A stretch of 47,492 bases of DNA from Armatimonadota bacterium (GTDB lineage Bacteria > Armatimonadota > Fimbriimonadia > Fimbriimonadales > Fimbriimonadaceae): NCBI GenBank assembly GCA_020161505.1, contig JAIUNY010000024.1, positions 1 to 47,492 of the forward strand. Direction: 5' to 3'. Position numbers and translations under genes: made by a program. Shown one piece after another: positions 4,850 to 23,381 of this stretch; positions within the stretch are counted from its first letter, which is position 1, and each line of letters starts with the position of its first letter. The notes under the pieces were generated by a model. The model was given only the letters and a program-made list of their open reading frames with translations, had not been told where the DNA came from and made no database searches.

Positions 4850-5884
4850 ATGAAAGTCGCGGTCGTCGGTGCCGGAATCATGGGGGCGAGCACCGCGCTT
4901 GCCCTGACCGATCGAGGCCATGAGGTCAAGATTTTTGAGCAGTTTCCTCTGCCTCACGCCCAGGGATCCTCCCACGGCGCCTCTCGGATCGTGCGCCGGG
5001 CGTACCCTGATGCTTTCTACACCGAGATCATGCTCGACGCCTATCCTCGGTGGGAAGTTCTCGATGAACGGCTCGGGGGTCAGGTGCTCTACGAAACTGG
5101 TCTGCTGTATGTTGGGGCAGATTCAAGTCTCGATGTGATTTCGATGCAAAAGGGGCTCGAAGCCTTGGGAGTCGAGCATCGAGTCTTGGATCACCGCCGG
5201 ATCGGGGAGGTGTATCCCGCTTTTCGCGCCGAGCCGGGAGAAGTGGGCATCTTGACACCAGGCGCGGGCTGGGTTTCCGCCGAACGAGCGGTCGCTGGTT
5301 CGCTACAGCTTGCCCAAGAGTATGGTGCCGTGCTGCACATTCAGTCAGTGGCCGATCCCGTGGCACTCATCCGTGAGTTCGATGCGGTTTGTATCTGCGC
5401 GGGTGGCTGGGCGAAGGATCTGTTTGGTCTTCCCCTCTCGGTGACTCTGCAAACCTTTGCCTATCTTGAGGTTGAAGCCCAGGGCCACGGGCCGGTGTGG
5501 ATTGAGGATGGCCCCCATGGCATCTACGGATTTCCCCCTGAGCCTGGGAGCAGTCGCGTGAAGTACGGCGTCCATTCACCTGGTGAAGAGATCAACCCGC
5601 GCCAAGAAAGCCGGCCCTTCTCGCCCGAAAAGTTGGAGCTTTTGAAAGACTTTGCCTCACGCCGCTGGGGGATCGAAAACCCGTTACCCGAACCGCAGGC
5701 GTGTCTCTACTCCAGCACCTCGAACATCGACTTCCTCTTTGGTGAAGCTGAATCAGGCGTATTTTGGGCATCGCCTTGCAGCGGGCACGGATTCAAGTTC
5801 GGCCCCTGGGTGGGGTCGCTCATGGCCGATTTTGTCGAGCAACGACAGCATCCACGAGACTGGCCTCGCTTCTATCACGCCTGA
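4850..5884 (+). CDS. Sarcosine-oxidase-like FAD-dependent amine oxidoreductase
   Basis: A 344-residue flavoprotein of the monomeric sarcosine oxidase/N-methyltryptophan oxidase family, which oxidises secondary amines and releases H2O2. The Rossmann motif is VAVVGAGIMGASTALAL at the N-terminus. SSHGASRIVRRAYPD matches the family's FAD-contact loop, ACLYSSTS carries a cysteine at the place of the covalent 8-alpha-cysteinyl-FAD residue, and CSGHGFKFGPWVG is the C-terminal FAD-binding signature. It is slightly shorter than typical members (about 370-390). A GAGAGA ribosome site lies just before the ATG. It is convergent with the dehydrogenase gene, with only six bases between them. The natural amine substrate is not evident. 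Confidence 0.88.
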   Translation: MKVAVVGAGIMGASTALALTDRGHEVKIFEQFPLPHAQGSSHGASRIVRRAYPDAFYTEIMLDAYPRWEVLDERLGGQVLYETGLLYVGADSSLDVISMQKGLEALGVEHRVLDHRRIGEVYPAFRAEPGEVGILTPGAGWVSAERAVAGSLQLAQEYGAVLHIQSVADPVALIREFDAVCICAGGWAKDLFGLPLSVTLQTFAYLEVEAQGHGPVWIEDGPHGIYGFPPEPGSSRVKYGVHSPGEEINPRQESRPFSPEKLELLKDFASRRWGIENPLPEPQACLYSSTSNIDFLFGEAESGVFWASPCSGHGFKFGPWVGSLMADFVEQRQHPRDWPRFYHA

Positions 5885-5890
5885 GAACTC

Positions 5891-6868
5891 TCACCAAGCG
5901 AGGACGCAAGTCGGGGGCTCGCGGTGGCCTTCCAGCAGTTGGTGATAGATCTCCGGCGCGGACTCCGCCGACTGGATATCCCTGATTCCCAGTGTGCTCA
6001 CGCGGCCATCCGCCATCATTTCCAAGGCGAGCTTGACGTCGTGCGGCTGGCAATCTCGCGGCAGGAGCAGACTTGCTTCCTTGAGAAACGCCGACTGATA
6101 GTTGAAATGAGCATCCCCTGGGTAGCTTCCCTGGAGGACGATCCGGCATCCTTGCTCCTCATGATCGGCCCACGTCCGCTCGCGACCGCAGGCGATCGCG
6201 TGATCAAGCACGACCCGTACACCGGTGCAATCGACAACAATATCAGCTCCGTCGGGCCAAAGATCCAAGACCGGTTCCGGCAGATTCCGCTCGACAACCG
6301 CCGTTCGTATGCCGGTCAGCCCCGCGATTTGTGCCCGCTCGGGAGATTGATCGAGCGCGAGAACATCCGCTCCAGATGCGGCGAAGGCTCGCGCCGAGAA
6401 CAAGCCAATGACTCCGAGACCAATCACGGCCACTCTCTCGCCGATGGTTGGCTGGGCCACCGAGGCGCCGCGCAACGCGATCGCCAGGAGCCGGGCCATC
6501 GCCGCATCGGCAAGACTGACTCCGGTCGGAAGTTCGCAGAGACTCTCCGTTGTTGCGATGGCATGCCCGCAGTGCCCTCCCCACATCCGGTCGATGCTCA
6601 CCTTTTGTGAGCCGCCGCAGTGGACCATCTTGCCGAGCCAAGCGGATTCGCCACCGATAACCTCGCCGACCATGGAGTAGCCGGGAACGAAGGGGAATGG
6701 CACGGAATCGGGTTGCTCACCCCGAATGCAACGGATTTCGGTGCCGGGACTGATCGCGGAAAACGACGTCTTGATGAGAACCTCACCCGGGTCGGGAGCG
6801 GGAAGCTCCACCTCGCGGATCTCCACTTCTCCGGGCGCGAGACAAGCAACAGCGCGTGAAACGGTCAT
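5891..6868 (-). CDS. Zinc-independent medium-chain dehydrogenase/reductase
   Basis: A 325-residue MDR-superfamily oxidoreductase with a GroES-like N-domain (PAPDPGEVLIKTSFSAISPGTEIRCIRGEQP, then FVPGYSMVGEVIG) and a Rossmann NAD(P) domain (GERVAVIGLGVIGLFSARAF, then an acidic DQSPERA at the end of beta-2, suggesting NAD). The usual catalytic-zinc ligands are not in place: the position of the first Cys reads SFSAISPGTE, as in BchC-like and other zinc-less MDRs, and the structural-zinc Cys cluster is absent. It may reduce or dehydrogenate a sugar or polyol. The neighbouring sarcosine-oxidase-like gene is convergent and so not in the same transcript. Confidence 0.82.
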   Translation of the reverse strand: MTVSRAVACLAPGEVEIREVELPAPDPGEVLIKTSFSAISPGTEIRCIRGEQPDSVPFPFVPGYSMVGEVIGGESAWLGKMVHCGGSQKVSIDRMWGGHCGHAIATTESLCELPTGVSLADAAMARLLAIALRGASVAQPTIGERVAVIGLGVIGLFSARAFAASGADVLALDQSPERAQIAGLTGIRTAVVERNLPEPVLDLWPDGADIVVDCTGVRVVLDHAIACGRERTWADHEEQGCRIVLQGSYPGDAHFNYQSAFLKEASLLLPRDCQPHDVKLALEMMADGRVSTLGIRDIQSAESAPEIYHQLLEGHREPPTCVLAW

Positions 6869-6880
6869 GGTTCAAAAAGA

Positions 6881-6916
6881 CTCCGGGGCCAGTCTATCCC
6901 AAGACTGGCCCCGGAG
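6881..6916 (-). terminator. Rho-independent terminator of the 243-residue protein gene
   Basis: A perfect 15-bp inverted repeat (CTCCGGGGCCAGTCT / AGACTGGCCCCGGAG) with a six-base loop. Read on the minus strand it is followed at once by TCTTTTTGAA, a U-tract, and it lies 20 bases past the stop of the gene at 6937-7668. It therefore separates that gene from the dehydrogenase gene starting at 6868. Confidence 0.9.
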
Positions 6917-6936
6917 CATGGAATTGAGGCGGTCGA

Positions 6937-7668
6937 TCAGTCGACGAGCTTCGTGACCATTTTGCCAGCCGAGGGCGGCATCATGGGGTTGAAGCTGACA
7001 TTTTGCATCTCAGCGATCATCTCAATGAGAGTCATGTCCTTGGAGTTCATCCACACGGTTCCCGTGACGCTCATGCCTTGGGAAGAGTCCAGTTCGGCGA
7101 ACACGTAGTCGATGCGATAGGCCGGGCGGTTAGCGCGGGTCTCGACGCCGACGTAGGTCCAGCGAGCCTTGGCGGATTCGAGGCCCTTGGCCTTGTCACC
7201 GGGATACTCCATTTCCCAGACTGTGCCTGGTTCGACAGTTCCGGTGGGGATCTTGCGGCTCATCATGCGAGCCATGCGCGGATCGCTCATCATGCTGTCG
7301 CCGCCCTCAGCCTTCACGAGGGTACCGTCGTGCTTGTAGACCATCTTGGCGGGCTTCTTCATTTGCTCCGCCGCATCGCCGAGCATGGCGGGATCCAGCG
7401 GCTGACCGCCGAGGAGGACATCGAACGCCGTCACCACGGTTTCCGACGTGACTGTTTCAGCATCGACGGCGACGGTCTTCTCGGTGGAACCCATCTTGAC
7501 TTCCACGTCCGGCATTCCCGAATTGGGATCGCCAGGAATGCTGATGGTGGTCGCATATTTGCGAACCGAATTAACTTCGGGTCTCTTGGAGAAATCGGCG
7601 GCATTCTGCGGTGCCATCACGAACATCGCAGCCAGCAGGGCGGAAAGGGCAGTTCCGGTGGTCATCAT
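6937..7668 (-). CDS. Secreted protein of unknown function (DUF6263-like lipid/solute-binding type not excluded)
   Basis: A 243-residue exported protein with a Sec-type signal (MMTTGTALSALLAAMFVMAPQNA). The mature part is rich in beta-strand patterns and contains GTVWEMEYPGDKAKGL, ARWTYVGVETRANRPAYRIDY and GMSVTGTVWMNSKDMTLIEMIAEMQN. This layout (treated ester-like 'total minus residual' repeats) resembles secreted beta-rich proteins of the DUF6263 kind, but I cannot place it firmly. It is flanked downstream by a strong terminator and upstream by a 50-base gap before the glycosidase gene stop, so it is probably monocistronic. Confidence 0.75.
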   Translation of the reverse strand: MMTTGTALSALLAAMFVMAPQNAADFSKRPEVNSVRKYATTISIPGDPNSGMPDVEVKMGSTEKTVAVDAETVTSETVVTAFDVLLGGQPLDPAMLGDAAEQMKKPAKMVYKHDGTLVKAEGGDSMMSDPRMARMMSRKIPTGTVEPGTVWEMEYPGDKAKGLESAKARWTYVGVETRANRPAYRIDYVFAELDSSQGMSVTGTVWMNSKDMTLIEMIAEMQNVSFNPMMPPSAGKMVTKLVD

Positions 7669-7718
7669 AGAATGATACTAGCACTCCCGGATTTTAGTTT
7701 CGCAGCCCCAGACTTTCC

Positions 7719-8717
7719 TTAACGTTTCGTAAACACGAGAGCGTTGGCAAGGGGTCTTCCTTCGGCGCGGACAGCCTTGCCGTTCACGATCATTCCGCTG
7801 CTTGCTCCGCCATCGTAATTCATCGCCTCAGCGCACCCGAGCCCCTTCATCACGGTAACCATCTTTGTCATCGGGCCTGCGCTCACCGCGAGAACCACCT
7901 TCCCGTCGGGCAGGATGCCCAGCAAGGTTCGGGCACCGCTTCCGCTGAGAATCTTGGGATCACGGAAGCCTTCAGACTCGGCGTCTAGCACATCTTTCCC
8001 TGAGCGCAGAAGCGTGGGGCCGCCGCCCATACCCTCCGTCACTTCTTCCCAAAACGCACTTTGCGGTGTGCCGTAGTCGATGGACATCGAGACCTTTTCG
8101 CCGAACTTGAATCGTGAGCCCATCGACTCTTCGGTGCCTTTGAAGTAGAGCACATAGCCCCCTTGCGGAATCGTCATCGACAATCGGCTGACTTGGCGCA
8201 CGGCACCGTTGCTCACCTGAACTTGCATTCCGGCAAGACCGGTTGCGGAACCCCAATGAGGCGTGAAAATCTGGGCCAGGTTCTTGCTCAGGGGGTCATT
8301 GTTCGCTCGGAAGGCATACCAACTCTGGTTCGCCACTTTGCCCCGAATCCTGATTTTCAGCGGATCCAGCCTCACCTTCCCTTCTTGGTTCATGCCAAAC
8401 ACCACTCCGATATCGCTGAGGTTGATTGGCATCCCGTCCGAGATCATCGTCTGCACGGTGTTGCGAATCGCGTTGTTGCTGTAGGCATCAAAGAACGCGC
8501 CGTTGATCGCGGCGACCGCCTTGTGCCGATTCGCCATGTTCTTCAGGCTATCTAGCGACCCCACGTTGCCCTTCCCCGTGACCACCTTCGCGGCGTAGAG
8601 CTTGGGATCGATGACCACATAGGAGACAGAAGCTCCCGCGATCTTTGTGGTTTTGACGACGAGACCCTGATTTCCAACTGAAGTTGCCAGAAGGCAGGCG
8701 GCGATCATCCCATTCAT
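7719..8717 (-). CDS. Secreted phosphodiester glycosidase (NAGPA domain)
   Basis: A 332-residue exported protein with the phosphodiester glycosidase (NAGPA, PF09992) domain, known from the mammalian 'uncovering enzyme' and from bacterial exopolysaccharide- or peptidoglycan-linked proteins. Signature pieces are AAINGAFFDAYSN (about 70), EEVTEGMGGGPTLLRSGK (about 230), ARTLLGILPDGKVVLAVSAG and GCAEAMNYDGGASSGMIVNGK near the C-terminus, including the DGG(A/G)SS motif. The N-terminus MNGMIAACLLATSVGNQG is a weak signal sequence. It probably acts on sugar-phosphodiester bonds in the cell envelope or on extracellular polymer. Confidence 0.88.
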   Translation of the reverse strand: MNGMIAACLLATSVGNQGLVVKTTKIAGASVSYVVIDPKLYAAKVVTGKGNVGSLDSLKNMANRHKAVAAINGAFFDAYSNNAIRNTVQTMISDGMPINLSDIGVVFGMNQEGKVRLDPLKIRIRGKVANQSWYAFRANNDPLSKNLAQIFTPHWGSATGLAGMQVQVSNGAVRQVSRLSMTIPQGGYVLYFKGTEESMGSRFKFGEKVSMSIDYGTPQSAFWEEVTEGMGGGPTLLRSGKDVLDAESEGFRDPKILSGSGARTLLGILPDGKVVLAVSAGPMTKMVTVMKGLGCAEAMNYDGGASSGMIVNGKAVRAEGRPLANALVFTKR

Positions 8718-15861: not shown

Positions 15862-16536
15862 TCACGCGCCCGGCTGATCGTGAGGGATAAGACTTTCGAT
15901 CAGCGCTCGGCACGCGGGAAGCGGGCGTTCCAGCAGGAAATCCCAATAGTCGATGACCAGGCAGAGGGCTTCAAATCCTCGATTGAACTTTGCCGGAGGC
16001 GCGGCCAGTGACCCGATTCGAGAAAGACCAATCAGGGCCTCCGCCGAAACCACCGCGCATCCGCCCGGATCATCAATCTGACGCACGATGCCTCCGCTCC
16101 GAAAGTGAAAAGCAGCCGGAGACCAAGTGAGCGGCTCGTCGGAATCGATGGTTTGAGTGAACTGCGCAGCGTGGCCTTCCTCCTCCAGTAGCCGAATCAG
16201 GATCCACGTAAGGGCATTTCCAGGATCCGCGCAGGTTTCAAAGTGGCCGAGAGCCTCCGTGGCGAGATCGAAGTACTCCGGAGCCGGGCTCTCGTAGGGC
16301 AAGGACGTCGCGAGTACCTCGGCAAAAGCGAGCGCGGCGAGCAACCGATCATAGTCACTCCGAATTTTTGGATAGGAGGTCATCGGCGTGACCTGGGTGA
16401 TGAAACGCCGGTGCTTCCCTTCCGCCCAAGCAAACCGAGCGAAGACGAGAGGCTCGCTTGATCCGGCTAGTCGAGAACCTGCCTTTCTCGCCCCCTTGGC
16501 GACGACATCGACTTTGCCAAAATCGCGGGTCAGCAA
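15862..16536 (-). CDS. recO: DNA repair protein RecO (start uncertain)
   Basis: RecO loads RecA on SSB-covered gaps together with RecR. From the TTG at 16536 there are 224 residues: LTRDFGKVDVVAKGARKAGSRLAG (end of the OB-fold), then a helical domain with YDRLLAALAFAEVLATSLP. The family's usual zinc cysteines are not evident. The conserved N-terminus clearly continues upstream in frame, reading DGLVLRRSDSGESDRRLTL directly before TTG-CTG, the first OB-fold strand pair of RecO. Yet between the in-frame TGA (within the preceding gene) and 16536 there is no ATG, GTG or TTG, so the true start must be rare (for example ACG at 16605) or the sequence carries an error. The extended reading overlaps the end of the upstream membrane gene. 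Confidence 0.85.
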   Translation of the reverse strand: MLTRDFGKVDVVAKGARKAGSRLAGSSEPLVFARFAWAEGKHRRFITQVTPMTSYPKIRSDYDRLLAALAFAEVLATSLPYESPAPEYFDLATEALGHFETCADPGNALTWILIRLLEEEGHAAQFTQTIDSDEPLTWSPAAFHFRSGGIVRQIDDPGGCAVVSAEALIGLSRIGSLAAPPAKFNRGFEALCLVIDYWDFLLERPLPACRALIESLIPHDQPGA

Positions 16537-16606
16537 AGTAAGTCGCCGATCCGACTCGCCCGAGTCAGATCGGCGAAGGACGAGCCCGTCTTGCGTGCGA
16601 TCCGTT

Positions 16607-17401
16607 TCAGGCCCCGCCGCGCAAGAGGACTTGCAGCCACTCGTTGACGATGTAGCTCATTCGGTCGATGACGAGTGCGAAGCGCGCCATGACCGTGCTG
16701 CCAAAGATCGCGCCGAAGCCAATCATCAGCATCCAGCGACCAAACGTGTTGATTCCGGTAAGGAACCTGCCCTTGAGGTCGAAGCTGAAGATGAAGTAGC
16801 TGAACGCGCTGACAAACGTGAGCACGAACACGAGGTTCGAGAGCGCTTGAGAGGCGTAGACGTTCTGGGCAATGAGGTTGTTAACCTCTGCCAGCCTGGC
16901 GGCATCCGGGATCGGCACCAATCGACCATCCACAACTTCCAGCGTGGAGGGGCGGGTCAGCGAATCGAACGTCGTCGGGATCACCGGCTTCATCGTCGCA
17001 TAGATCTGCGGCCCCCAGGTGTCCCACCAGATCTGGATTTGCTGCCCCGACCAGAGGCCGAGAATGATTCCGAGCGGAATCTTGCTCATCCAGTTGTGCT
17101 TGCGGTTGAACACCATGTAGCCCATCAGGCCAATGGGGAGCAAAGCCGCGTAGATCCAGTAACCCACCTGCGCTTCTTGCCCGGTTGCCGCATCGGCCGC
17201 GCGACCGAACATTCGAACGAACCAATCGTTGAACAGGGTGTCCTTCCAAGTAGCAACCAGGGTATAGCCCGCGGCCAGACCAAGGAAGATGTGCTCGAAG
17301 AATCGATAGACCTTCGTCTCGCGATAGAGCACGCTGTAGAGGCCAATCGTGGCGATCACGCCAACGGTGATCTTAATCAGGAGATACTGATTCTCGTTCA
17401 T
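16607..17401 (-). CDS. Polytopic membrane protein of the glmU-prs-recO cluster (subunit F)
   Basis: A 264-residue integral membrane protein without a recognised family. It starts MNENQYLLIKITVGVIATIGLYSV and has about six hydrophobic spans (roughly 8-25, 36-50, 80-100, 105-122, 185-210 and 228-248). A soluble loop between spans four and five (about 125-180) contains IWWDTWGPQIYATMKPVIPTTF and EVVDGRLVPIPDAARLAEVNNLIAQN. ETKVYRFFEHIFLGLAAGYT near the N-terminus is strikingly polar for a membrane segment. It begins one base after the stop of the gene at 17403 and precedes recO. Probably one subunit of the multi-protein membrane assembly encoded by this block. Confidence 0.85.
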   Translation of the reverse strand: MNENQYLLIKITVGVIATIGLYSVLYRETKVYRFFEHIFLGLAAGYTLVATWKDTLFNDWFVRMFGRAADAATGQEAQVGYWIYAALLPIGLMGYMVFNRKHNWMSKIPLGIILGLWSGQQIQIWWDTWGPQIYATMKPVIPTTFDSLTRPSTLEVVDGRLVPIPDAARLAEVNNLIAQNVYASQALSNLVFVLTFVSAFSYFIFSFDLKGRFLTGINTFGRWMLMIGFGAIFGSTVMARFALVIDRMSYIVNEWLQVLLRGGA

Positions 17402-17402
17402 C

Positions 17403-18359
17403 TTAAGCCTCTTCTCCTTGGCGACGTCGGGCCATGAACATGGAGACGTTGCCCATCACAACGGCAAGGATGAGCAGGACGAGCGCCACGTGAAGCGTTC
17501 CGTAGTACTGCTGACCACGAGCAAGGGTCTTTCCTTCCGTGACCGGCGGAACTTCGGCTCCATTGTTGCCATCCCATTCCACCTTCGCCTTGCCTTCGCC
17601 GCCGGGTTTGACGTTGATGCCATTGGCCATCATGTACTCAACGTCGTAGACTCCCTTCAACCCAATTGCCACGCCCTTGAGCTGGCCCGATTGGTAGAAC
17701 GGCAGAACGCCCGGGCCGACAACGCCGGTGACCAAGCCCATGATTGGGACGCGCTTGGCCAGTCGCTGGATCGCGACATCAATCGAAGCCGAGGCCGTAA
17801 CGACGATCATCATTCCAGCGTCTTCGATTTTCTTGACGTTGCCCAAAACGGGGGTGGCGAAGATATCGACTTCGCGACCATCCACCCGAGCCTTGCGGCC
17901 TTTCCAGGCTTCGCGCAAGTTGTTGCCCATGTTGGTGTTGGTGGCTTCGGCGTTCGGGAAGTAGCCAAGATCGAGGTAATCCACCCCGGCCTTGTAAACC
18001 CTGAGTCCCTGACCCTCGCGCTCCTTATTGATGCGCGTGATGACCGTGCGGGCGACCTGAGGTGCCACAGGATCGGCCGCAGAGTAGAACACAAACTTGA
18101 TGTTCTGGCTCATCAGCAGGCGCATGAGGTTTTCAAAGTGCCCCATGCTCTCGCCCCGAGTCGAGTTCGTCCAATCGGACTGGATGAGAACGACCTTCTC
18201 CGGGTTCAGCTTTTTGATTTCCGAGTAGAAGCTCTTGCTGCTCGGATCCGGGTCAACCGGGATCGTGGCCGGGAAGAACAAGCCTCCGCAGACGAAGAAG
18301 ATCAGGATCGCGTACAGAACGCGCCGGTCAACCTTCTGTGCCTTTTCCCAGAAGTTCAT
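17403..18359 (-). CDS. Anchored protein with large extramembrane domain (subunit E)
   Basis: A 318-residue protein with one N-terminal span (VLYAILIFFVCGGLFFPATI, about 14-33), a soluble domain of some 250 residues and a C-terminal span (TLHVALVLLILAVVMGNVSMFM). The soluble part alternates strands and helices: KVVLIQSDWTNSTRGESMGHFENLMRLLM, IKFVFYSAADPVAPQVARTVI, DAGMMIVVTASASIDVAIQRLAK and PIMGLVTGVVGPGVLPFY. This is a Rossmann- or periplasmic-binding-like alpha/beta layout, seemingly of two halves. PVDPDPSSKSFYSEIKKL follows the first span. No enzyme motif is recognised. Its ATG overlaps the upstream stop (ATGA), and only one base separates its stop from the next gene. Confidence 0.85.
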   Translation of the reverse strand: MNFWEKAQKVDRRVLYAILIFFVCGGLFFPATIPVDPDPSSKSFYSEIKKLNPEKVVLIQSDWTNSTRGESMGHFENLMRLLMSQNIKFVFYSAADPVAPQVARTVITRINKEREGQGLRVYKAGVDYLDLGYFPNAEATNTNMGNNLREAWKGRKARVDGREVDIFATPVLGNVKKIEDAGMMIVVTASASIDVAIQRLAKRVPIMGLVTGVVGPGVLPFYQSGQLKGVAIGLKGVYDVEYMMANGINVKPGGEGKAKVEWDGNNGAEVPPVTEGKTLARGQQYYGTLHVALVLLILAVVMGNVSMFMARRRQGEEA

Positions 18360-19285
18360 GCCGACACCCCACCGCGCTCAAGTCCAAGCCAGAGTCGAAG
18401 GCCCATCGCAAGGGCTCCGAGTCCGACGCCAAAGTCGATTGCACGAATCGCAGGAATCTGCATGTTGGATCTCAGCCAGTTCGCCATTTCGGTCAGCTTG
18501 AAGTTGAGAAGGAACGTGTTGCCGGTTTGAGCCGCCAGCCCATCAATCGCGTTGCCCCAGACGAAGGTGAGCGCGCCCATCAGGTTCAGCATCAAGATCA
18601 GCGCGGAGGCCATCATGACGGTCGCTTCCACGCTGCGAATTCTGAAGGCGCGGAACGCTGCACTCAAGATGAAGAAGGCGATCATCGAGAACATCGCCGC
18701 ATCCATTTGCTGATAGATGCCCTCGAACAACAGATCGTTGGCGCGGTTGAAGAAGCCCCAGTTCACCGGGTCGTTGAGGAGACCCTGGGGATCTTGGAAG
18801 GTGCGCGTTGTCCAGTCGCCAAAACCAACCGTGGCCATGGTGATGAAACAGACGATCAACACCATCGAGAACCCGTAGTTCTCCGCCTTTCGCTTGATTT
18901 TCATCGAGTGAACGCGGAGCAAGGAGAAGATTCCCACACCGAGCAGAAAGCCCTGCAAGATGTTGGTCAGCTTTCCGACCGGGTCAATCGCCGCGTTGAT
19001 CAGGAAGCCAACTTGCTCACCTGGATTCGGAAGCTGAGTCGCGACGTCCATTGCGATCGGCTTCGGCCACAGGTACGCAAGCACGTAGGGCAAACCTGCC
19101 AGGAACGTAAAGGTCACCACCACCCAGCGCCGCAAGTGACTCGGCACCATCGAGAGAAGGAACAAAATCCCGAAGCCGAGGAGCAAGCCAACACCCAACC
19201 AGATGTAAAGATCGGTGGAGCCTGGCATCTTGCGCCAGAAGTTTTCTGTGGTTTGGGCTAACGGAAGCCACTGAGTTAGATTCAT
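18356..19285 (-). CDS. Polytopic membrane protein (subunit D)
   Basis: A 309-residue membrane protein with about seven hydrophobic spans: LYIWLGVGLLLGFGILFLLSM, WVVVTFTFLAGLPYVLAYLW, LQGFLLGVGIFSLL, SMVLIVCFITMATVGFGDW, MDAAMFSMIAFFILSAAFRAF, ATVMMASALILMLNLMGALTFVWG and a weaker C-terminal one (IDFGVGLGALAMGLRLWLGL). A VGFGDW after the fourth span recalls a potassium-channel selectivity sequence, but the rest does not fit a channel, so I read it as coincidence. Between genes of the same block it overlaps both neighbours by four bases (ATGA). Function unknown. Confidence 0.85.
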   Translation of the reverse strand: MNLTQWLPLAQTTENFWRKMPGSTDLYIWLGVGLLLGFGILFLLSMVPSHLRRWVVVTFTFLAGLPYVLAYLWPKPIAMDVATQLPNPGEQVGFLINAAIDPVGKLTNILQGFLLGVGIFSLLRVHSMKIKRKAENYGFSMVLIVCFITMATVGFGDWTTRTFQDPQGLLNDPVNWGFFNRANDLLFEGIYQQMDAAMFSMIAFFILSAAFRAFRIRSVEATVMMASALILMLNLMGALTFVWGNAIDGLAAQTGNTFLLNFKLTEMANWLRSNMQIPAIRAIDFGVGLGALAMGLRLWLGLERGGVSA

Positions 19286-20247
19286 TCGCCTTCACCTTCT
19301 GCCGCGGCGCCTTCCACCGGCTTGTCTTCGCGCTCCACTTCTGTCCAGGCCTTAGGAATGCAAGGATTGAAAATCTGATGCATGAATGTGTCCTTGGTGG
19401 CCTTCTTGACAGGGCCGGTCTGACCTTCCGCTGGAGTTGCCTGCTCCCAGACGCATCCATTTTCTCCGTCAACGCGAACCATTGTCGCGGCCTGACCTCG
19501 CTCAATCGAGCCCATCAGGGTTCCGACGAGCACAAGCCCCGCGACCGTCATCTTCGCCCAGTCCTGACCCACGAGTGATCCGACAAGCACGGGCTGTCGA
19601 GTGAGATAAGCAGACGCTGCGTAGAACTCGTCACCGATGAGAACGTAGTCGCAGGCGGCGATAAAGAACGGGGTCTGGGTCGACTGGGTCGAACCTGCCA
19701 CCTGAATCGCGCCCACCGCGTTCGAGGTCTCCGCAAAGATCAAAGACTCGGCGAAGAACGCGCCGAGAAGGAACGTCGCCGCCACCTTCTCGCGGTGGAT
19801 GATGCCACTGACGCCAGCCGCGAACGCGAACTGCTGGTCAGAAACGAACTGAACTGTTTCCGCCCCGAACTTGTCCGTTTGTCCGGCTTGCTGATACACG
19901 TCACGAATGACCTCCTGAGCCACCGCAAACACCGGAGCGTTGGCGCAGCAGATCCGAACCGGGGTGGCAAAGGTTGCCGCCGTCTTGGTGACCTGAGCAA
20001 AAATGTTGATCGCCTGAACCGAGATCGCGTCCAGAGCGCCGATGCCGGGAACCATCAACACCGGTCTACCCATCTCGGTCGCCCGACCGATTGCGTCGTC
20101 AATCGCATTCAGACCAGCGATCCGGCGAATGAAGAGGTTCTTGGCCCCTTTGTTCGCCCGGTAGATGTTAAAGAGGATGAAGAAGACGACGAGTAAGGTA
20201 AACGCCGTCCCTATCCAGCCCGAGTCGAGATACTGTTCTCCTGACAT
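19282..20247 (-). CDS. DUF6754-type membrane protein (subunit C)
   Basis: A 321-residue protein that I match from memory to the DUF6754 family, known from environmental and thermophilic phyla and without assigned function. It has a short N-terminal span (WIGTAFTLLVVFFILFNIYRAN), the strongly conserved RRIAGLNAIDDAIGRATEMGRPVLMVPGIG, an alpha/beta domain (QFVSDQQFAFAAGVSGIIHREKVAATFLLGAFFAESLIFAE; GAIQVAGSTQSTQTPFFIAACDYVLIGDEFYAASAYL; LVGSLVGQDWAKM) and a second span near 232-250 followed by an acidic tail. The EMGRPVLMVPG and GSLVGQDW loops look like ligand-contact sites. It starts three bases after the preceding stop. Best marker gene for this cluster. Confidence 0.85.
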   Translation of the reverse strand: MSGEQYLDSGWIGTAFTLLVVFFILFNIYRANKGAKNLFIRRIAGLNAIDDAIGRATEMGRPVLMVPGIGALDAISVQAINIFAQVTKTAATFATPVRICCANAPVFAVAQEVIRDVYQQAGQTDKFGAETVQFVSDQQFAFAAGVSGIIHREKVAATFLLGAFFAESLIFAETSNAVGAIQVAGSTQSTQTPFFIAACDYVLIGDEFYAASAYLTRQPVLVGSLVGQDWAKMTVAGLVLVGTLMGSIERGQAATMVRVDGENGCVWEQATPAEGQTGPVKKATKDTFMHQIFNPCIPKAWTEVEREDKPVEGAAAEGEGE

Positions 20248-20250
20248 AAG

Positions 20251-20586
20251 TTATGCTCCCGCGCTCTGCGCGAGATTCTCCGCATCATCGCCCCCAGGGC
20301 GCTTCGGCGGAGTGGGATCTTCCAGTGCGAGGATCAGACGTTCCAAAGACTCCCGACGACTCAGAAGCCGACTGAAATCTCGCACTTGGTTTGCCCCAAG
20401 AAATGGTGCCAAAAACGGTGACCCCACGATCATCGCTTGACTGGCCACCCCCGAAACGGGCTTGTGAAGCTCCAAGAAAAACACCGTGGGAACCTCAAGC
20501 TTTCGGCGCTTGATCTCCCAGGTCACTTTCTCTATGAGCTTCGTCTCCTCCTCGGGAGTCAGCTGTTCCGTCCAAAGTTCGTCCAT
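20251..20586 (-). CDS. Short membrane-associated protein (subunit B)
   Basis: A 111-residue protein of unknown function. A charged N-terminal helix (TPEEETKLIEKVTWEIKRRKLE) is followed by a semi-hydrophobic hairpin-like stretch with VPTVFFLELHKPVSGVASQAMIVGSPFLAPFLGANQVRDFSRLLSRRESLERLILALED. Its many small residues and glycines suggest a re-entrant or membrane-peripheral element. The charged C-terminal tail (PPKRPGGDDAENLAQ) follows. The first 92 bases overlap the end of the upstream gene in another frame. Position and tight spacing to the DUF6754 gene argue that it belongs to the same complex. Confidence 0.75.
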   Translation of the reverse strand: MDELWTEQLTPEEETKLIEKVTWEIKRRKLEVPTVFFLELHKPVSGVASQAMIVGSPFLAPFLGANQVRDFSRLLSRRESLERLILALEDPTPPKRPGGDDAENLAQSAGA

Positions 20587-21016
20587 CGCGTTGGGTTAGT
20601 TCGGCTATTTTGACCAATACAGCGTCTTCGTTGCCAGAGAATCGGAGCAGGACTCCCCGGAAAGCGTCTAATCGACTCGGACTTTCGAGCGGGGACAGTC
20701 GGATTCCGCCCTCAACCGGGATGGTTCGCTTTACGTTTTCCCACCTCATCGCCGTCAGGGAGACCCCGATTTTCGAGCTGACCTGCTCCTGATCGATCCG
20801 GTACTTGATGGGAAGAAAGAGTTCTGCCGTCGAAGCGAATACCACGATCGGCCCGAGAAGAATTCCCAAGTAAAACCCTATCGCATAGGCTACAACCGCC
20901 GTGAGAGCGGCAAAAACAATCACAGGCAGACGCTTTTCCGGCATACGGTCGCCCAGCCTGACCTGCCAAACCATCGGCAGATCACTGCTGGGCCTCGAAT
21001 CCGGAAGAGTGCTCAC
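20495..21016 (-). CDS. Membrane protein with PH-like domain (subunit A)
   Basis: A 173-residue protein with two close hydrophobic spans (LPVIVFAALTAVVAYAIGFYLGILLGPIVVFASTAELFLP) followed by a PH-like soluble part (YRIDQEQVSSKIGVSLTAMRWENVKRTIPVEGGIRLSPLESPSRLDAFRGVLLRF). I chose GTG at 21016 because GTGA overlaps the prs stop, a standard coupling; a TTG lies six bases earlier. The last 30 or so residues (RDGRTLDGTADSRGG...) look out-of-family and lie over the start of the next gene, so the functional part may end near LTQ. First gene of the membrane block. Confidence 0.75.
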   Translation of the reverse strand: MSTLPDSRPSSDLPMVWQVRLGDRMPEKRLPVIVFAALTAVVAYAIGFYLGILLGPIVVFASTAELFLPIKYRIDQEQVSSKIGVSLTAMRWENVKRTIPVEGGIRLSPLESPSRLDAFRGVLLRFSGNEDAVLVKIAELTQRDGRTLDGTADSRGGDEAHRESDLGDQAPKA

Positions 21017-21978
21017 CGCCAATCGTTGAAAAGGGTGCTGACCGACTCGTTCAAGTGAATCCGTCGGATCGCTTCACCGAGAAGCGGAGCGATCGGCAAA
21101 ACGGTGAGTTTCGGGAATTCCTTCACGCTGCCGATGGGGATTGTGTCCATCGTGACGACCTTGCTGACCACAGAATCTTGCAGACGCTGGCTCGCGTTCC
21201 CGCTCAAAACCGGGTGGGTGCAGCAGCAGATCACCTCAGTGGCTCCCCGCTTCATCAGCGCCTCCGCGCCCATGATGATCGAGCCGCCCGTGTCGATCAT
21301 GTCGTCGATCATGATGCAGCGCTTGCCCGTCACGTCGCCGATGATTTCGACGATATCCACCTTGTTGGGTTCAGGTCGTCGCTTGGCAATGATCGCAATC
21401 GGAGCCTTGAGCATTTCCGCCAGCGATCGTGCGCGAGCCACCCCGGCGACATCCGGGCTGACCACGACAATGTCTTCTTGGTCGGCATAGCCCTCGTCCA
21501 CGAAATATCGACCGATGATCGGGCCGCCATAGAGATGATCGACCGGGACTTCAAAGAAACCTTGGATTTGTTCGGCGTGAAGGTCGACCGCCACAACCCG
21601 GTGAGCCCCCGCGCGGGCGATGAGATCCGCAATCAGGCGAGCGGTGACTGGCTCGCGAGGCTTAATCTTCTTATCCTGGCGGGCGTAGCCGTAATACGGA
21701 ATCACCACGGTGAGACGGCGGGCACTCGCTCGGCGGAACGCGTCGAGCATGATCAAGAGCTCCATCACGGAGTCATTGACCGGCGAACAGGTCGGCTGGA
21801 GGATGAAGACGTCGTTCCCACGAGCGCTTTCGTCCACCATCAGCCGGATTTCGCCATCGGAGAACTTGGTGGAGGTCAATCGCCCAAGTTCAATGCCGAG
21901 ATATTCGGCGACCTTCATGCCGAGCTCTTTGTGAGCATTCCCGGCGAACAGTTTCATTCCCACCATTTCTTGATTCAT
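21013..21978 (-). CDS. prs: Ribose-phosphate pyrophosphokinase (PRPP synthetase)
   Basis: Prs makes phosphoribosyl pyrophosphate from ribose 5-phosphate and ATP, feeding purine, pyrimidine, His, Trp and NAD synthesis. Motifs: MKLFAGNAHKELGMKVAEYLG, TKFSDGEIRLMVDESARGNDVF, VVIPYYGYARQDKKIKPREPVTARLIADLI, the VAVDLHAEQIQGFFEVPVDHLYG loop and the PRPP-binding loop CIMIDDMIDTGGSI. About 321 residues from the ATG at 21978, whose ATGA overlaps the glmU stop; a downstream ATG at 21957 (MKLF) would also fit. Its stop overlaps the next start by GTGA. The order glmU-prs is widespread. Confidence 0.97.
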   Translation of the reverse strand: MNQEMVGMKLFAGNAHKELGMKVAEYLGIELGRLTSTKFSDGEIRLMVDESARGNDVFILQPTCSPVNDSVMELLIMLDAFRRASARRLTVVIPYYGYARQDKKIKPREPVTARLIADLIARAGAHRVVAVDLHAEQIQGFFEVPVDHLYGGPIIGRYFVDEGYADQEDIVVVSPDVAGVARARSLAEMLKAPIAIIAKRRPEPNKVDIVEIIGDVTGKRCIMIDDMIDTGGSIIMGAEALMKRGATEVICCCTHPVLSGNASQRLQDSVVSKVVTMDTIPIGSVKEFPKLTVLPIAPLLGEAIRRIHLNESVSTLFNDWR

Positions 21979-23381
21979 CCGTTTGAACCCCGTTTCCATT
22001 CGCGCCAGCGAACAAACCAGTCTTCTTTGTTCTCCTGTCGGCTCCGCGCGACCGCGAGTGCGCCGCTCGGAACATCCTTCGTCAGGACACTTCCCGCTGC
22101 CACCAACACGTCATCGCCGATTGTAATCGGTGCGACGAGCGTAGAGTTGCTTCCGACAAAGCAATCGCGTCCAATTTCGGTGCGATGCTTGGAGAATCCA
22201 TCATAGTTGCAGGTGATTGTGCCTGCGCCGATATTGGTGCCATCGCCCACTGAGGCATCGCCAATATAGGTGAGGTGCGAGGCACTGACTCCCGCGCCGA
22301 TCTCGGAATTCTTTATCTCGACGAAGTTGCCAATCTTGGCTTCTTCTTTCAGAACCGCTCCCGGGCGGAGATTGGAGAACGGCCCGAGGCGGCAACCATT
22401 TGCCATATTCGCCCGCTCCATGTGGCTCATAAACACGCGGCAGGAGTCGCCGATTTCACTGTCTTTGATCCAAGAGTTCGGGCCGATCTGACACCCAGAG
22501 CCGATGCTGGTGGAGCCCTCAATCACGCAGTTCGGATGGATCACTGTGTCTTTGCCGATCTTCACGTCCGGCCCAATGTGGGTGGAGCCAGGATCAACGA
22601 TGCTCACTCCGCTGACGGCGAGGGACTTGAGAATCCGCTCCCGAACAATCGCGCCTGCCTCGGCGAGTTGCCATTTGTCGTTGATCCCCCGAAACTCGTC
22701 CGGATCATCGCTGAGGACGCCCTTGATCGTTTCGCCTTGCTTGACAAAAATCTTGATGACATCGGGCAGGTAGTACTCGCCCTGAGAGTTGTCGTTGCCA
22801 ACCTGATCGAGGGCCGCGAACATCTTCTGATTGTCAAAGCAGTAGATCGCGGGATTGACCTCGGTGATCTCACGTTGCTCCGTGGTGCAGTCCTTGTGCT
22901 CCACAATCGCGGTGACACTGCCGTGGCTGACATCGCGAAGAATGCGGCCATACCCTCTCGGATCCTCGAGTTCAAACGTGGACATGACGCATGCCGCACC
23001 CGACTGCGCCTGATCTTCCCAGAGCCCGCGCAGCGTGGAGCCGGAGATCATGGGGACATCGCCCGCAACCACCAAAACCGGGCCATCAAACGTTCCGAGA
23101 TGCTCTCGCGCCTGCAACACCGCGTGACCGGTGCCGAGTTGCTCGCGCTGCCAGGCGAACTTAACCGAATCACCCAACGCTGCTTGAACCTGATCGCCGC
23201 CGTGACCAATCACGACGACAATCCGCTCGACGCCCGCTTCTCTCAGAGCCCGCACCACCCACTGCACCATCGGAACCCCGGCAACCGGGTGGAGCACCTT
23301 CGGCAGATCGCTCTTCATGCGGGTGCCCTGTCCGGCGGCAAGCACCAGGGCGGCAGGAGAAGCAATGCGGGCGGTGGACAT
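21975..23381 (-). CDS. glmU: Bifunctional UDP-N-acetylglucosamine pyrophosphorylase/acetyltransferase
   Basis: GlmU (468 residues) acetylates glucosamine 1-phosphate and then makes UDP-GlcNAc for peptidoglycan and lipopolysaccharide. The N-domain has LVLAAGQGTRMKSDLPKVLHPVAGVPM, GTGHAVLQA, GDVPMI and the EVNPAIYCFDN loop. The left-handed beta-helix C-domain runs from about 250 with DPGSTHIGPDVKIGKDTVIHPN to GAGTITCNYDGFSKHRTEIG and GSNSTLVAPITIGDDVLVAAGSVLTKDVPSG. It is the first gene of the long coupled minus-strand run and is divergent from upp with a 52-base gap. Confidence 0.98.
   Translation of the reverse strand: MSTARIASPAALVLAAGQGTRMKSDLPKVLHPVAGVPMVQWVVRALREAGVERIVVVIGHGGDQVQAALGDSVKFAWQREQLGTGHAVLQAREHLGTFDGPVLVVAGDVPMISGSTLRGLWEDQAQSGAACVMSTFELEDPRGYGRILRDVSHGSVTAIVEHKDCTTEQREITEVNPAIYCFDNQKMFAALDQVGNDNSQGEYYLPDVIKIFVKQGETIKGVLSDDPDEFRGINDKWQLAEAGAIVRERILKSLAVSGVSIVDPGSTHIGPDVKIGKDTVIHPNCVIEGSTSIGSGCQIGPNSWIKDSEIGDSCRVFMSHMERANMANGCRLGPFSNLRPGAVLKEEAKIGNFVEIKNSEIGAGVSASHLTYIGDASVGDGTNIGAGTITCNYDGFSKHRTEIGRDCFVGSNSTLVAPITIGDDVLVAAGSVLTKDVPSGALAVARSRQENKEDWFVRWREWKRGSNG

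Follow-up and report, generated by a model that had tools for sequence, protein, structure and literature searches.

Members of the GlmL/MutL family (PF13941; TIGR01319, glmL_fam) are known as accessory proteins of B12-dependent mutases. In the MreBCD and PilMNOP systems, an ATPase of the ASKHA (actin/Hsp70-fold) superfamily is paired with membrane proteins carrying external domains, and the Rnf and Nqr complexes combine a barrel-sandwich soluble subunit with small polytopic subunits and an anchored subunit with an outer domain. The family DUF6754 (PF20539) has no described function. Here, we describe a set of eight genes that recalls each of these in part. Six of them, A to F, form a block in a 47,492-nucleotide stretch of contig JAIUNY010000024.1 (assembly GCA_020161505.1) from an Armatimonadota bacterium of the family Fimbriimonadaceae; the whole of this stretch is referred to in the following as the window. 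The other two, H and G, are encoded elsewhere in the same genome. From operon membership, co-loss and gene fusion, we consider it very probable that the eight proteins are one functional unit. On balance, we also favor the view that they make up one ATP-driven membrane machine, in which H and G would be the cytoplasmic motor and C, D, E and F the membrane part.

The initial annotation of the window described A to F as six closely coupled genes on the minus strand. This description was accurate: all six reading frames are intact and on that strand, and the spacings range from −92 to +3 bases (prs/A −4, at GTGA; A/B −92; B/C +3; C/D −4; D/E −4; E/F +1). The genes of the set are as follows.

Gene A, 20495..21016, minus strand: 173 amino acids from a GTG start, two membrane helices and a C-terminal domain
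Gene B, 20251..20586, minus strand: 111 amino acids, with the conserved core P..FLE..KP
Gene C, 19282..20247, minus strand: 321 amino acids, DUF6754 (PF20539)
Gene D, 18356..19285, minus strand: 309 amino acids, about six membrane helices
Gene E, 17403..18359, minus strand: 318 amino acids, helix, Rossmann-like domain and helix
Gene F, 16607..17401, minus strand: 264 amino acids, about six membrane helices
Gene H, C9:37006-38478 of the window's genome: single copy, on a contig other than that of the A–F block
Gene G, C8:37062-38171 of the window's genome: single copy, on a contig other than that of the A–F block

The GTG start of gene A and the stop codon of prs share four bases (GTGA); translation of A could instead begin at an ATG at 20974.

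A search of 84,980 genomes for homologues of C gave 348 stretches encoding relatives, from which the best 80 loci were kept; the profile search for A–F covered 82 sequences around C homologues. Homologues of D and E adjoined C in all 82 sequences, showing that the association of these genes is not due to chance, and F was found in 77. We read the five loci without F as contig or fragment ends. Contig ends aside, the order C-D-E-F was unchanged at all 82 loci, which span Armatimonadota, Fermentibacterota (Aegiribacteria, Sabulitectum and Hyd24-12) and Poribacteria. Homologues of A and B were present at 71 and 72 of the 82 loci, respectively. They stand before C in Armatimonadota, and their overlap, of 4–125 bases, is conserved at 66 of 69 loci. 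The neighbors at the two ends, prs before A and recO after F, are each found in 36 loci, which marks them as local to the window's relatives. The proposal that the block is a conserved unit was thus upheld, since the gene order is kept across three phyla and the homologues are not scattered. C was also found in 59/59 Poribacteria and 42/42 Fermentibacterota genomes, often in two to four copies in the latter, and the DUF6754 marker was absent from 14 well-known control genomes.

The six proteins had been proposed to form a self-contained complex. This part of the proposal had to be given up: operon membership, co-loss and gene fusion indicate that H and G belong with A–F. In Fermentibacterota (L066, L068 and L075), two genes, H and G, stand between A-B and C-D-E-F. 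The complete operon A-B-H-G-C-D-E-F occurs in L066 and L075 and in two distant Armatimonadota families (L087 and L092), a second arrangement, A-B-C-D-E-F-H-G, was found at L086, and L088 has H-G-C-D-E-F. Judged by coordinates in 151 Armatimonadota genomes, each at least 90% complete, H lies within ≈4 kb of G in at least 50 and G within ≈1 kb of C in at least 20. Natural H–G fusions of 916–973 amino acids are found in Fermentibacterota, and at L114 and L115 the fusion comes after a second C-D-E-F set. A divergent set, C'-D'-E'-F'-H'-G' (L090, G140:C158), has the same partners at low identity; the genome that contains it has an estimated contamination of 6%, and the contig may be foreign, derived from another phylum.

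The presence of these genes in the 151 genomes pointed the same way. C was detected in 138, G in 141 and H above the cut-off in 140, and all 138 C-bearing genomes had G (Fisher P 2e-13 for C against G, uncorrected for kinship). In ten genomes (G004, G006, G018, G029, G049, G085, G094, G102, G143 and G144), C, F and G are all missing, and so is a real H. They fall in four families (f1, f6, f8 and f10), three of which also hold bearers, so that at least four losses would be required if the ancestor had the system. There were four exceptions: G021, G039 and G077 have G and H without C and F, and G032 has C, F and G without a full H. Since these are assemblies of 320 to 1,060 contigs, a contig lost from the assembly is the likely cause. 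H was also present in all ten further genomes tried. Retained as a whole or lost as a whole across the phylum, the set is probably the single ATP-driven machine proposed above.

Some loci depart from the usual form in single subunits. In L053, L054 and L058, the C frame is ≈580 amino acids, and a long N-terminal extension fills the ≈800-base distance from B. Single subunits are duplicated in tandem in L089 (two E, 6831–8651) and L093 (two C, 5031–8215), and the E' protein of L090 has 944 amino acids, with a zinc-ribbon and proline-rich head. The short E of L009 (9808–10692; weak match, 1e-4) is probably the result of a frameshift or assembly error, since E is full-length in L008, a nearly identical locus. 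The record named 'Methanoregulaceae archaeon isolate SJ84' (L029) is probably a mislabelled Fimbriimonadaceae genome, because its H lies at the same coordinates as that of the Armatimonadota genome G149.

H matched MutL (PF13941) with 419.5 bits (cut-off 27) over profile positions 1–448 of 450, and the H of the Fermentibacterota operon matched at E 2e-122. It thus carries the whole family domain, and the three ASKHA motifs (phosphate-1, DCGSTTTK; phosphate-2, VDIGGATTDVFS; adenosine, GSGG) are conserved in the alignment, including the copy of the window's genome. These matches identify H as an ASKHA ATPase of the GlmL/MutL family whose phosphate-binding motifs are intact; it is likely the energy source of the system. 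However, it falls below the curated GlmL-family and equivalog cut-offs (TIGR01319, 168.2 vs 204 bits; NF040745, 221.5 vs 475 bits), and it is linked to membrane proteins instead of mutases.

G, of ≈373 amino acids, is a member of no family. Of 13 separate G proteins, 11 matched Biotin_lipoyl and seven matched RnfC_N (E up to 1, best 0.0012), in most cases weakly and below the cut-off. The RnfC_N (PF13375) cut-off of 25.6 bits was exceeded in an H–G fusion only, whose G part matched with 26.2 bits (8e-6) and also matched NQRA_N at 1e-4. The Biotin_lipoyl and RnfC_N matches suggest that G is probably a barrel-sandwich-hybrid protein. Its C-terminus is probably KOW-like; matches of G to solved structures were weak, to SPT5 KOW and a lipoyl domain. 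In general, sequence matches of C, E, G and H to solved structures were weak and mixed.

The assignment of C to DUF6754 was borne out by a full-length match to PF20539 (300.6 bits, cut-off 27 bits; E 9.5e-90; profile positions 14–250 of 257). C consists of a helix (10–33), a Rossmann-like domain (≈44–217) and a second helix (219–251). It is the most conserved membrane subunit, with 44 invariant columns, far above the others, including R41, R55, E58, R152, E167, E173, C199, D200, Y201, E207, D229 and K232. A K/R-rich segment follows the first helix, and in the relatives L089 and L092 a fibronectin III (fn3) domain, over the cut-off, precedes it. From these two features, the Rossmann-like domain of C is predicted to lie in the cytoplasm and the fn3 domain of the relatives outside it. 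E has a similar layout, with a helix (12–28), a Rossmann-like domain (≈39–246) and a helix (281–317). K/R residues at both of its termini place the E domain on the outside, where it is predicted to be extracytoplasmic. The positive charges therefore suggest that the C and E domains lie on opposite sides of the membrane.

AlphaFold2 models of C and E, built on alignments of the locus proteins, had mean predicted local distance difference test (pLDDT) scores of 87.4 and 94.9, respectively. Both showed a Rossmann-like alpha/beta domain between two helices, consistent with the alpha/beta domains that the initial annotation had seen in these two proteins. Foldseek found no match to either model in the PDB at E up to 0.001. 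VIA-align gave top Z values of 8.2 for E (CODH epsilon, MT0777) and 10.5 for C (PGK, MT0777 and RCK domains). Since many unrelated Rossmann proteins tie, no function was drawn from the fold similarity. We also considered whether C and E are duplicated homologues, and rejected this at an hhalign probability of 5%, despite the shared helix-Rossmann-helix plan.

A, B, D, E and F belong to no Pfam or NCBIfam family. A has two membrane helices and a C-terminal domain that ends in a conserved LSP...R..FRG motif. In a hydropathy scan, D and F each showed about six membrane helices; D has the invariant motif R212..F214-R215, and F has an invariant E36, a nearly invariant H37 and a glycine-rich last helix, FGA.FG.T.M.R. 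All six proteins had been taken as membrane-linked, but the link of B is doubtful and at best weak, to judge from its single hydrophobic stretch (47–65). A K+ channel was considered for D and rejected: the sequence TVGFGD occurs in the window's copy only, in columns that are not conserved in the alignment. The Pfam score of D against Ion_trans_2 was weak and below the cut-off. D and F were likewise rejected as duplicated homologues (hhalign 2%).

In the ATP-driven machine that we favor, H would bind and hydrolyse ATP in the cytoplasm and would dock via G onto the cytoplasmic domain of C; the docking of H and G is proposed because they are fused in natural paralogues. D and F are predicted to form the bulk of the membrane core, and movement from H–G and C would pass through them to the outer domain of E. 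Transport driven by ATP, or energy transduction across the membrane, would be the most likely use; sensing comes second, in view of the two-component regulators that lie next to the system in several lineages.

Several points weigh against this interpretation. H is identified by its family alone, and the GlmL proteins related to it work with B12 mutases rather than at membranes. In the PDB comparison, the fold matches of C and E did not rise above the generic Rossmann background, and no motif for binding a substrate or an ion could be recognized in D or in F. H and G stand apart from the A–F block in Fimbriimonadia, and A-B is not next to C-D-E-F in some Fermentibacterota and in Poribacteria, so that a constant stoichiometry of all parts is not required. 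Physical interaction, ATPase activity and transport are all read from sequence. A bolder claim, which we hold as tentative and rather unlikely, is that the set is a machine for membrane transport or energy transduction and the first of its kind with an ASKHA motor, as opposed to an ABC, P-, F-, V-type or AAA motor, core to three phyla and lacking in standard model bacteria.

The alternative that survives best is a signalling complex, in which C-D-E-F would sense a ligand or the state of the envelope and relay it via the H–G ATPase to soluble two-component proteins. We regard this as possible, though unlikely. G is overlapped or immediately followed by a gene for an OmpR-type response regulator in the window's genome (L085 8181–8849, on C8). 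The same holds for 12 of another 14 Armatimonadota loci where G has no adjacent H (L118–L122 and L124–L130, but not L123 and L133). At L087 and L088, the gene directly after F encodes a PAS hybrid histidine kinase with no obvious membrane part, and at L114 a PAS-domain protein is encoded after F. An E domain on the outside and the fn3 domain on C in relatives would also suit a sensor. However, no two-component regulators were found beside the operon in L086, L092, L066 and L075. Because the regulators are not universal and differ between lineages, control of expression ranks first as their role, and it may be their only one. Moreover, two polytopic subunits and an ATPase exceed the needs of a sensor.

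It is also conceivable, but improbable, that H is an ASKHA cytoskeletal protein tied to the envelope by C, D, E and F, comparable to MreB-MreC-MreD or PilM-PilN. H does have the motifs of the actin/Hsp70 fold superfamily, and its membrane partners mix polytopic proteins with two-helix proteins that have an external domain. On the other hand, H falls in the GlmL/hydantoinase branch, where the known members act as enzymes or reactivators and do not form filaments, and A–F match none of the partner families: MreC, MreD, PilN, PilO and PilP were not found among them by Pfam up to E 1.

We give still less weight to the idea that H serves to reactivate a B12-dependent mutase, as a GlmL-type factor would, its link to the membrane block being secondary. 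The closest named relatives of H are indeed GlmL and a GlmL-related ornithine degradation protein. Of the two mutases searched for in the 151 Armatimonadota genomes, however, the glutamate mutase E subunit (PF06368) was found in none and methylmalonyl-CoA mutase in ten, compared to 140 for H. H tracks C-D-E-F rather than a mutase, besides scoring below the GlmL-family cut-off.

A divergent redox-driven ion pump of the Rnf/Nqr family, with G as its RnfC/NqrA subunit, appears very improbable. The likeness lies in the layout and in the RnfC_N and NQRA_N matches of the fused G part, the former just over the cut-off and limited to the barrel, a widespread fold. The system has an ATPase in place of the redox subunits, and the alignments of D, E and F contain no invariant cysteine. 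These three proteins had no Pfam match to Rnf/Nqr or FMN-binding families up to E 1, and hhalign gave them probabilities of ≈0–1% against Escherichia coli RsxA, RsxD, RsxE and RsxG, and G 9% against RsxC, values that allow a very remote homology.

Finally, that A–F are six unrelated housekeeping genes sharing an operon by chance between prs and recO, themselves ordinary genes, can be dismissed, as C-D-E-F keeps its order among wholly different neighbors in three phyla and the set is lost together and duplicated together.

The initial annotation had named confident matches of D, E and F to known, unrelated systems as evidence that would speak against its proposal, and no known system was matched here. 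None of the eight proteins matched a PADLOC model at E up to 0.1, on which basis an anti-phage defence system was ruled out. In the library searched, no paper mentioned DUF6754 or PF13941, and nothing was found on the system. The eight-gene set thus appears to fit no known kind of system that could be named or tested here, the comparison of D and F being one of sequences.

The block is flanked by two genes on the same strand.

prs, 21013..21999, minus strand: directly upstream of A and translationally coupled to it; identified from its own sequence
recO, 15862..16605, minus strand: directly downstream of F

Upstream of the conserved N-terminus of RecO (window 16536–16605, ...TDRTQDGLVLRRSDSGESDRRLTLLTRD), there is no ATG, GTG or TTG, and the frame stays open back into the end of F. 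Since the same start-codon absence is seen in several Fimbriimonadaceae relatives (L002–L007 and L010), recO may have a non-canonical start codon or depend on coupling to F. Near the other two genes in the window's genome, a methionine-synthase-like corrinoid protein is encoded close to H without being adjacent to it (L084 3734–5398), and a PspA/IM30 gene (L085 9097–9969) is convergent to the pair of G and its regulator. As far as the flanks reach, PspA/IM30 was not seen beside G in relatives.

The system is present in about nine out of ten Armatimonadota genomes, and its C marker in every sampled Poribacteria and Fermentibacterota genome. It is probably basic to how the cells of these phyla function. 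A common role would follow for DUF6754, for GlmL-like proteins that do not serve mutases and for four unnamed membrane families. If H does drive the membrane part, this would be a new kind of task for ASKHA ATPases.

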